From positions 141,114 through 174,384 of the forward strand of contig JAQTPW010000001.1 in NCBI GenBank assembly GCA_028712565.1: DNA of 33,271 nt, given 5' to 3'. This DNA is from Minisyncoccota bacterium. GTDB lineage: Bacteria > Patescibacteriota > Minisyncoccia > Minisyncoccales > JAQTPW01. Positions 26,321 to 29,067 of the stretch are shown piece by piece. Position 1 is the first letter of the stretch. Every line of letters starts with the position of its first letter. A model generated the notes under the pieces. That model was not told where the DNA came from and made no database searches. It worked only from the letters and a program-made list of their open reading frames with translations. The position numbers and the translations under genes were made by a program.

Positions 26321-26776
26321 TTATTTTTGGATGTTTCGCCCAAGCTTATCTTCGCACCTTTGAAGAAGAGCTTTGATTTTAGTTATTTCAGGATCATCTT
26401 CCAGAAATAACTTTTTTGTCACTAAGAAATTCAATGGCTTGATGTCTTGATCTTCCCGAAATCCGTGTCGATGGAGTTCCTCGTTGTTATCGGCAATAGC
26501 GCCATATATTTCATCCACGCTTGCGTTTGCCTGATACGCGACGGTCAGACGACAAACCAAACGAACCTGATTAAGGATAACTACTTCAGAAGCTGATACA
26601 ATATGGCCATTTGCCAAAATTTCAGCAACTAACTTACTCATCCGTTCAATATCAGATTCTCTAATACCGGGTGGAAGCTTTTTTTCAGCTGACCGCCATC
26701 CCTTAGCCTCGGTTCTTTTGAATTGTTTTTTTGGATATTTCAACTCTTTCTCCTTTCCGACCATCCCCCTTAACAA
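26321..26776 (-). CDS. Uncharacterised protein (start uncertain)
   Basis: Open frame with SD-like sequence; no recognised family. Confidence 0.6.
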   Translation of the reverse strand: MLRGMVGKEKELKYPKKQFKRTEAKGWRSAEKKLPPGIRESDIERMSKLVAEILANGHIVSASEVVILNQVRLVCRLTVAYQANASVDEIYGAIADNNEELHRHGFREDQDIKPLNFLVTKKLFLEDDPEITKIKALLQRCEDKLGRNIQK

Positions 26777-26852: not shown

Positions 26853-28361
26853 AAAAGAATTAAAAATATTATCGTATAATTTTAAAGTACCAGTAATATC
26901 AATCTTTTTTCGGCTCTCAAAAGTATTTTCCATCAAATAAAGCAAAGTGTCGTTTTTTTCCTCGATCGTTTCGTAATAGATCTGAGAATATGCTTTTGCT
27001 TTCTGATAAACAGTATAAGAACTGTAAGGGTCAATGAAAAATCCGTTGCCTTCGTGAGTTTCAGGATTAAATTCAGAAATAAATTCTACATCTCCTCCGG
27101 TCTTTGAGGTAATTGTAGGAATGCCGTTAATAGTCCATCTTTGAGTTGAAGTGCCGCAGGCTTCGCGTTTTTTAATAGGACAGTGAAGCCCAAGGTCTAA
27201 TCCCCAGCCAAACAGTTTTAAAAGCTCAAAATCGTATCTCTGCAGAAAAACAAAATTTTTATTTAGCAGCGGATCTTGCATCCATTTATTGAACTCGTTA
27301 ATCCAAGCCCAGCAGTTGCTATCGGCAACATAACCTGCGCAGAGAAATTGCATGCCAAGGCCTTCGAGCTTTCCGAAAACCGTATCAACTGATTCTCCTC
27401 TTTCGGCGCAAATTGCCCGAATTATAGGAGCTATCATATCATACTGGTTTTTGTAGGAAACTAACCTCCTCGCAAATCCGAATATCGGATTTTTCAGGTT
27501 GAAATTTAAACCCAGCTTATCCAGCGAATCTTTTTTTATTTCTTGATGAATTTGCCACAGCTTAAACCTATCAATATTATCTCCGGCCTCTCTTAATCTC
27601 GGGTTTTGCCAAGTATCTTGATGAGACCCATTCCGGATGCCGCAAACCTTTTCCGTATATTTAGGATATGTTTCTTGGGTCGTTTGAGAATGCTCTTTGC
27701 ATACCCCATTTATCCGGTCAGCCATGCTTATTGCCGCCAGAGTAAAATCCATGCAGCCGTTCTGGACAAAATAATTATGGAATTCATCGCTTACCTTTAG
27801 CTCCGGAAACCATTCTTTATCATACCTTTCATTTCCTGCCAATTCAGGAGTATGAATGGTAAAAAGAATTTTTGATCCGTTGGAAAATGGATCTTTTTTT
27901 ATTTCCGGCAAGACAACAGCTGTATGCGACTCATTAAGCCAGATAATGTCGGGTTTAATGTTCAATGTTTTTAAAACAATAGGCACAGTTTTCCCAAACA
28001 AAATTTCTTGCTGAAGCCGTCGCCACCGGTTATCCGTATACAAGTAATCGAAAACTGAGGGACATTCCAAACCAAGAAGAAAAACATTATTTCGGTTGGT
28101 AATATTCCGGACATTTACAGTGTTCCCTAAGACATCCAGAGTGAGTATTTTTGGCGCAATGGTATCGTAGAAAACTCCATGCCCGTTTACCCAGCAATTA
28201 GAATACAAAGGAACAATCGCAGTTAATTTTTTATCAAGACACCAACCATTTTTTATATCCCCTCCCAAAATTCCAAGTCCTCCCCTGAAATTTGCTATTT
28301 GCGCCAAATCCGGAAGTTCAGTCATCAGCATCTCAAAAGAAAGAAGCAAAACGCCCTTCAT
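26838..28361 (-). CDS. Alpha-glucan phosphorylase-like (GT35) protein
   Basis: NGVCKEHSQTT, GIRNGSHQDTWQNPRL, FARRLVSYKNQYD, REACGTSTQRWTINGIPTITSKTGGDVEFI; strong SD GGAGGAATTCG-ATG. Confidence 0.75.
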   Translation of the reverse strand: MKGVLLLSFEMLMTELPDLAQIANFRGGLGILGGDIKNGWCLDKKLTAIVPLYSNCWVNGHGVFYDTIAPKILTLDVLGNTVNVRNITNRNNVFLLGLECPSVFDYLYTDNRWRRLQQEILFGKTVPIVLKTLNIKPDIIWLNESHTAVVLPEIKKDPFSNGSKILFTIHTPELAGNERYDKEWFPELKVSDEFHNYFVQNGCMDFTLAAISMADRINGVCKEHSQTTQETYPKYTEKVCGIRNGSHQDTWQNPRLREAGDNIDRFKLWQIHQEIKKDSLDKLGLNFNLKNPIFGFARRLVSYKNQYDMIAPIIRAICAERGESVDTVFGKLEGLGMQFLCAGYVADSNCWAWINEFNKWMQDPLLNKNFVFLQRYDFELLKLFGWGLDLGLHCPIKKREACGTSTQRWTINGIPTITSKTGGDVEFISEFNPETHEGNGFFIDPYSSYTVYQKAKAYSQIYYETIEEKNDTLLYLMENTFESRKKIDITGTLKLYDNIFNSFVAVN

Positions 28362-28450
28362 CGAATTCCTCCTTCTCGCCTACTTCGTTATGTCAATGAA
28401 CAAAAAATTGCACTTATCAAATACTATAATATTTGAAAAAATTTGCAAAC

Positions 28451-28488
28451 AAAAAGCCGCCATTGTCTATAAAGGCAGACAAGGCGGC
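28451..28488 (-). terminator. Intrinsic terminator
   Basis: GCCGCCTTGTCT-N8-AGACAATGGCGGC TTTTTG on minus strand. Confidence 0.8.
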
Positions 28489-28500
28489 ATATTCGTTTTA

Positions 28501-28818
28501 TTATTCGCATATCGAAACAGAAACAACCTCACTCATTTTAAAAGGTATCAGTTTCCCTATTGATTCTATATCAGTAGAACTTAAAATGTACATATTAATG
28601 GGAAAACCATCGTAATAACCCTTCGTACATTTACCTCGGCATTCAATCATCTTGTCGTTCTGCAAAAGCTTAATAAGAATGACCGGCATCTTTTTTAAAT
28701 CGCACGGATTATTAGAAGTCACTGTTGTCCTACTGATAGTTTCTCTTATCTTTCGCTTCTCACCATCGGAAAGAATTGCTTTAGTGTTATTTAAGCCTTT
28801 TAAAATCTCAGTTGCCAT
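28501..28818 (-). CDS. Orphan 105-aa protein behind a leader-peptide attenuator
   Basis: Strong SD (AAGGAGGAAT-ATG), own promoter and terminator; no family recognised. Confidence 0.75.
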   Translation of the reverse strand: MATEILKGLNNTKAILSDGEKRKIRETISRTTVTSNNPCDLKKMPVILIKLLQNDKMIECRGKCTKGYYDGFPINMYILSSTDIESIGKLIPFKMSEVVSVSICE

Positions 28819-28856: not shown

Positions 28857-28941
28857 AAAAAAAGAGCTGGTCCTCTTGACCAGCTGAATTTTCTTTACCT
28901 TTTTAGTCCCCAAGAAAACTCAGCTGGTCACTGGAACAGCT
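28857..28941 (-). promoter_or_regulatory. Transcription attenuator: mutually exclusive antiterminator (28912-28929 with 28878-28895) and terminator (28878-28885 with 28865-28872 plus T7)
   Basis: 18-bp antiterminator pairing with one G.U; 8-bp terminator stem and T-run. Confidence 0.8.
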
Positions 28942-28982
28942 TTGATAGCAAATAGGAATCTTTGTAAATTTGAAATTTTCAT
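28920..28982 (-). CDS. Putative 20-aa leader peptide MKISNLQRFLFAIKAVPVTS, stop codon inside antiterminator segment 1
   Basis: ATG 28982 to TGA 28920; too short for the ORF track; weak SD (GGAAA). Confidence 0.55.
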   Translation of the reverse strand: MKISNLQRFLFAIKAVPVTS

Positions 28983-29039
28983 TTTCCGTATATTATGACG
29001 TTTCTACCCCTAATTTATTACACAATTCCCAATTTGTAA

Positions 29040-29067
29040 ATTTTAGCAAATTTGGCGATTTTGTCAA
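29040..29067 (-). promoter_or_regulatory. Promoter of the attenuator/105-aa unit
   Basis: TTGACA (29067-29062)-16 bp-TAAAAT (29045-29040). Confidence 0.8.

Follow-up and report, generated by a model that had tools for sequence, protein, structure and literature searches.

How is an orphan gene of 105 aa on the minus strand of a Minisyncoccota genome controlled, given that it is preceded by a short open reading frame (ORF) and by segments that can pair with each other in mutually exclusive ways? The gene lies within a stretch of 33,271 nt that was analysed as a whole (the window). An initial annotation, made from the letters of this stretch, proposed a complete leader-peptide transcription attenuator in front of it. 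Judged from sequence comparison, the leader is very probably a ribosome-mediated transcription attenuator placed under an envelope-stress-type sigma factor. The elements and their conservation, the covariation, the fold logic, the promoter motif and the link to an ECF sigma locus are computed results; the signal to which the leader would respond may be one of several.

Elements of the leader and its cargo gene

The annotated elements, namely the TTGACA-16-TAAAAT site, the 20-codon ORF, the pairing segments, the U7 tract, and the Shine–Dalgarno (SD) sequence and terminator of the gene, could all be read in the sequence where they had been placed, with the leader at 29067–28857 on the minus strand (Table 1). 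Helix 1:2 had been described as 18 bp with one G.U pair, and this count held (19 bp if U28930–A28877 is included); the longest helix among 300 dinucleotide shuffles of the leader was 15 bp. RNA folding, suggested as a check, gave −43.7 kcal/mol for the 141-nt region against a shuffle mean of −27.5, that is, 4.7 SD below the shuffles (z = −4.7). A predicted intrinsic terminator with a U-tract lies between the leader and the gene, and the antiterminator shares its 5′ arm, excludes it and is backed by covariation. The Rfam search of the window returned two tRNAs only; no family reached its gathering score over the leader, where even the best permissive matches were far under their cut-offs.

Table 1. 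Features of the leader locus and its surroundings, in the order in which they are read on the minus strand.
Feature	Coordinates	Strand	Remarks
Short murF-like gene (Mur ligase central domain)	29687–29085	−	Last of the dcw cluster; landmark 5′ of most homologous leaders
Sigma70-type promoter-like site, TTGACA-16-TAAAAT	29067–29040	−	11/12 match; TTGACA box 29067–29062, TAAAAT box 29045–29040, 16 nt between
ECF-sigma promoter, TGTAATAAA-N13-CGTC	29022–28997	−	Motif and spacing common to 10 leaders
Leader ORF, MKISNLQRFLFAIKAVPVTS, 20 codons	28982–28920	−	UGA stop is nt 8–10 of segment 1
Segment 0, AGCUGUUC	28941–28934	−	Partner of segment 3 around 1:2, or weakly of segment 1
Segment 1	28929–28912	−	Antiterminator 5′ arm; holds the leader stop codon
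Segment 2	28895–28878	−	Antiterminator 3′ arm and terminator 5′ arm
Segment 3	28872–28865	−	Predicted intrinsic terminator with segment 2
C + U7 tract after segment 3	U7, 28863–28857	−	Segment 3 and tract span 28872–28857
105-aa orphan gene	28818–28501	−	AAGGAGG SD; attenuated cargo (predicted)
Terminator 3′ of the 105-aa gene	about 28488–28451	−	GCCGCC-TTGTCT...AGACAA-T-GGCGGC-TTTTT read in the sequence
151-aa gene	26776–26321	−	Related to a ~130-aa helical protein 3′ of the leader in other genomes

The orphan status of the 105-aa gene was borne out across the protein libraries and genome sets searched. Relatives were found neither in its own genome, 60 relatives, 247 genomes of the order and 384 of the class, nor in GTDB/viral contigs, phages, plasmids, Pfam, PHROGs, NCBIfam and PDB; weak matches, which contained in-frame stops or lay within long ORFs, were judged to be chance. 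A structure prediction of the protein by itself was unusable (pLDDT 41). Around window 28361–28501, an AAGGAGG sequence also occurs at the adjoining glucan phosphorylase/synthase-like gene, as it does at the 105-aa gene.

Homologous leaders and covariation

In ~166 kb, covering the window and related loci, terminators were sought whose 5′ arm has a second partner far upstream; two other sites were found with an 18–19-bp upstream helix sharing the terminator arm. Both turned out to be homologous leaders from other genomes in this order, each sitting 3′ of a murF-like gene and carrying an ORF of 20–21 codons with a UGA stop within segment 1. The first covariance model gave strong matches in 11 genomes, and model R2 gave 12 strong leaders including that of the window (76–136 bits, at least eight families); with the G089 and G093 leaders added by inspection, the total was 14. 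The 13 further leaders all belong to the same Patescibacteria order (Nealsonbacteria/Paceibacteria-type MAGs), and at least 10 of them lie directly 3′ of a murF-like gene. A truncation of murF by insertion was rejected because several relatives stop at the same domain boundary, and a tRNA remnant suspected 5′ of the G171 leader found no support.

The genes behind these leaders differ. Zinc-ribbon-like proteins are encoded in G029, G018, G046 and G179, and small beta-barrel-type proteins in G172, G021, G171 and G173. In most members, these small genes are close 3′ of the leader and have a strong SD, and none of their products had a confident Pfam match. Profile comparison detected no relation between the 105-aa protein and the beta-barrel cargo (probability 0.2%). 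The barrel at locus L109 was modelled with pLDDT 88 as one helix and five strands, and Hfq was among its best PDB matches, albeit non-significant (E about 0.06, TM about 0.5); the Hfq/Sm likeness of the modelled L109/L111 cargo is a lead only and cannot be carried over to the window gene. A later gene of ~130–150 aa is common to several leader loci, including the window (26321–26776), and the 151-aa product there aligned with a ~130-aa helical protein in hhalign (E = 8.5e-7, 122 columns). The description of a leader in front of an orphan gene therefore needs amendment: orphan status applies to the gene alone, whereas the leader, as judged from its homologues, is a conserved cassette with varying cargo and is not private to the 105-aa gene.

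The covariation check over homologous leaders supported both alternative helices. In the alignment of 12 sequences, helix 1:2 was paired in 94.8% of cells and helix 2:3 in 91.7%, each with two-sided changes at five pairs (10 cells with such changes vs. 4.0 in shuffled alignments for 1:2; 8 vs. 2.9 expected for 2:3). The covariation score of either helix was reached by 0/500 shuffles, although the shuffles overstate significance because there are only 12–14 members, which are related to each other. When the partner was shifted by one column, the pairing of both helices dropped sharply. The annotated alternative pairing of segment 2 with segment 3, followed by U7, is thus conserved and covarying in the homologous leaders. 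Conservation was lower for helix 0:3, with 76% of cells paired and its covariation score attained in 22/500 shuffles. Furthermore, one set of columns in segments 0, 1, 2 and 3 covaries, with TATA in three genomes (G000, G018, G179) and CGCG in another seven; such a co-change in four segments would follow from competition of segments 1 and 3 for segment 2, and the resolution of the murF tree is too poor to count independent four-way changes.

An ECF-type promoter common to the leaders

The initial annotation assigned the promoter to the TTGACA-16-TAAAAT site. This sigma70-like site exists, but the main conserved promoter is of the ECF type and had been overlooked. The motif TGTAA(C/T)AAA-N13-CGTC precedes 10 leaders including that of the window (nine exact, one with one mismatch), with CGTC 9–23 nt 5′ of the leader ATG. 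The 14 member genomes contained 21 sites with this motif and 0 with the reversed pattern. Two sites were found in the genome of the window, one at the leader and the other behind the gene of its single ECF sigma factor (the single PF08281 protein; genome contig C1, around 18266), where it precedes a gene for a DUF5667 membrane protein that looks like an anti-sigma factor. Among the 247 genomes of the order, the motif occurred in 99, with about 117 sites vs. about 20 reversed ones, and well over half of the 98 sites read precede an anti-sigma-like gene behind an ECF sigma gene. A −35/−10 motif with fixed spacing is therefore common to the leader and the sigma/anti-sigma locus, as in an ECF-sigma regulon. 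The position of the sigma70-type site is not conserved in most relatives; G172 and G173 have a TTGACA-17-TATAAT/TAAAAT promoter just 5′ of the leader ATG. The TTGACA-16-TAAAAT site is probably a second, housekeeping promoter.

The −35 and −10 elements resemble the B. subtilis ECF consensus, (T)GAAACNT and CGT(C/A)T (PMC5126115), and, as in the sigM/V/W/X-type regulons, the predicted targets include the anti-sigma gene. Unlike in those regulons, the sigma factor here would also drive an attenuated leader, which would amount to two-layer control, and the Patescibacteria sigma gene is followed by that of a DUF5667 membrane protein.

Predicted switch logic

Ribosome positions were mimicked by partition-function folding with the 5′ part of the leader masked. 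Without a ribosome, the window leader formed helix 1:2 while segment 3 was paired with segment 0 (0.83). With segment 0 masked, 1:2 was formed and segment 3 was free (0.02 paired); with a ribosome at the stop codon, 2:3 was formed (1.00). Segment 0 had been annotated as a partner of segment 1, with which it can indeed pair, but segment 3 is the better partner (MFE; P = 0.83). Most of the 12 members gave the same off/on/off order for no ribosome, a stall over segment 0 and a ribosome at the stop. The ribosome-free state deviated in G186, G171 and G021, and helix 0:3 was not formed in G186 and G171. The edge of the ribosome lies 16 nt from the P site, and with this value, codons 11–14 (UUU GCU AUC AAA) in the A site gave the read-through fold.

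These folds suggest the following sequence of events. Transcription would start at the ECF-sigma promoter, with the sigma70-like site further 5′ as a possible second start, and the leader would be translated while it emerges. A ribosome running to the UGA in segment 1 would cover segments 0 and 1; with these covered, segment 2 would pair with segment 3, and the U7 terminator would therefore be expected to stop transcription. A ribosome slowed with codons ~11–14 (Phe-Ala-Ile-Lys) in its A site would cover segment 0 and leave segment 1 free, so that the 18-bp helix 1:2 forms; segment 3 would then be left unpaired, and transcription would continue into the 105-aa gene. In the absence of a ribosome, 1:2 would form and segments 0 and 3 would pair into a stem before the U-tract, where transcription might likewise terminate. 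Promoter and fold logic together predict that the gene is on only when an active ECF sigma factor coincides with a slow-down of leader translation at one place. The envelope-stress promoter and ribosome slowing together seem required for cargo expression.

The leader peptide and the candidate signals

The leader contains no run of one control codon, as previously noted, but this statement has to be softened because Phe and Tyr are enriched about threefold just 5′ of segment 0: between positions −13 and −7, they account for 24 of 84 residues vs. 7.6 expected, with a P value that is optimistic because the members are related. A loose pattern, approximately M..LIS[KR].Y[FL].[FI]K[GA]..Q..G/S, recurs in many leader peptides. 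The sensing position holds Phe, Tyr, Ile and Lys codons, and the signal may be the supply of these amino acids, a general slow-down of translation or an antibiotic.

The same attenuator could be triggered by ribosome-binding antibiotics or nascent-peptide arrest of the bmrB/erm type instead of aminoacyl-tRNA scarcity, a reading that we consider possible though rather unlikely. The peptide is partly conserved, roughly [IV]S[KR]xY[FLK]x[FI]K[GA], beyond what a codon run would need, and the cargo does not belong to amino-acid biosynthesis. The logic of the B. subtilis bmrB-bmrCD leader is also similar: a terminator, an antiterminator and an anti-antiterminator overlap a short translated ORF, slow translation leads to read-through, and the cargo is non-biosynthetic (PMC4191407). 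However, bmrCD encodes a drug transporter that is switched on by antibiotics acting on the ribosome (PMC4191407), whereas no cargo here resembles a resistance or ribosome-protection gene, and the likeness noted is one of logic. The Phe/Tyr enrichment is also compatible with control by tRNA, of the kind suggested by the Phe leaders found in this class (see below).

Evidence for ribosome-dependent control

Whatever the trigger, the preferred reading requires that the ribosome makes the choice between 1:2 and 2:3. An ATG ORF of 19–39 codons ending inside segment 1 was found in 12 of the 14 leaders, and a comparable ORF in either other frame in 0/14. The stop is UGA throughout these ORFs except in G093 (UAA), and the stop triplet is invariant across the 12-leader alignment, which agrees with the annotated position of UGA within segment 1. 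The leader ORF has no SD, as is the case for most genes in the window; therefore, the argument for its translation comes from conservation.

A protein or small molecule might instead select the helix, with the ORF being incidental. The leaders of G021 and G171 (L059 and L061) would suit such a switch, having neither an ORF start codon nor an ECF promoter while retaining helices 1:2 and 2:3. The in-frame ORF and its invariant stop speak against it, as do the lack of a conserved unpaired aptamer-like core and of any Rfam family at gathering score, and we regard it as improbable. The conserved frame, stop, helices and terminator, together with the covariation of the helices, strongly support the annotated proposal that ribosome position decides the fold.

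It is even less probable that the leader is a stand-alone small RNA (~130–170 nt) ended by the terminator, with the 105-aa gene transcribed from its own promoter. A promoter and a strong terminator do bound a compact RNA, and there seem to be further short RNAs driven by ECF promoters; yet a promoter-like site was not found between 28857 and 28818, and in most members genes with a strong SD lie close behind the leader. Nor would such an RNA have any obvious use for helices that exclude each other or for a conserved short ORF. The end of a mobile element or a recombination site, suggested by a near-perfect inverted repeat adjoining an orphan gene, was rejected as having a negligible chance, given the single genome copy, the same post-murF position in several families, the covariation and the conserved stop codon.

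Comparison with known attenuators and related transcripts

The ribosome-dependent attenuator proposed here shares a short leader ORF, overlapping helices, a U-tract terminator and a decision by ribosome position with the E. coli trp/phe/his type. It differs in lacking a single-codon run, in its non-biosynthetic cargo and in its ECF-type promoter, from whose CGTC the leaders of the window type start at a distance of 9–23 nt. In the ribosome-free state, the predicted nested 0:3 around 1:2 contrasts with the consecutive 1:2 and 3:4 of the trp/phe/his type. The cognate codon run and biosynthetic operon that define an amino-acid biosynthesis attenuator are both missing, the cargo being an orphan, a zinc ribbon or a beta-barrel.

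Leaders closer to the classical type were observed in the same class. Phe-rich leader peptides with attenuator-like helices, MQTITTQNYFFFFSFFIRGVGLSV (L088, G211) and MKTQTSKNFFFFFFTSSEKRRNFLV (L091, G077), precede prephenate-dehydratase-like genes, that of L088 being backed by NCBIfam; by sequence, these represent putative Phe attenuation in Patescibacteria. The leader MNFRHTLINIIIITGIRPEPS (L101, G299) lies 5′ of a homoserine dehydrogenase gene as a thr-type attenuator. All three resemble the window leader in size, in an ORF running into the antiterminator and in the U-tract terminator, and differ in their runs of 4–6 Phe or 4 Ile codons and their biosynthetic cargo; no common ancestry is claimed. 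Since the class has classical Phe- and homoserine-type attenuators, the mechanism appears to be at home in these organisms.

Other ECF-promoter transcripts were also seen in relatives. Those at L175, L163, L177 and L254 carry short ORFs rich in Leu, Val and Ile (e.g., MGKQMNLIIVLLLVLLVLNVNKRGLVRFI), located 5′ of a ClpB-like gene at L163 and L177, and could represent a further leader-peptide system of this regulon. At L176, L165, L253 and L258, the promoter is followed by a hairpin and terminator within ~70–90 nt and by no clear gene, making these candidate ECF-controlled small RNAs. At L106 (4611–4818, G037), an ECF promoter 3′ of murF precedes a short ORF rich in aromatic codons as well as repeats of CCCC(A/G)TTAGAAA / TTTCTAACGGGG segments; this element may be related to the switch but diverged from it.

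We tentatively propose, with reservations, that the CPR attenuator has a new four-segment architecture, in which segment 0 acts as a lid on segment 3 around 1:2, termination ensues both when the ribosome is absent and when it completes the leader, only a pause over segment 0 allows read-through, ECF sigma activity and slow translation form an AND gate, and the switch is conserved while the small-protein cargo is interchangeable.

Significance for Patescibacteria

Neither leader-peptide attenuation in CPR bacteria nor Patescibacteria ECF promoters were found described in the open-access literature searched; the regulation of this large uncultured group therefore appears nearly blank. The present analysis points to a sigma factor, its promoter motif, a regulon and an attenuator family in organisms whose genomes measure about 1 Mb or less. 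It also offers an example of a regulatory cassette that stays in place while the gene under its control is swapped, and suggests that even such reduced cells join the sensing of envelope stress with that of translation.
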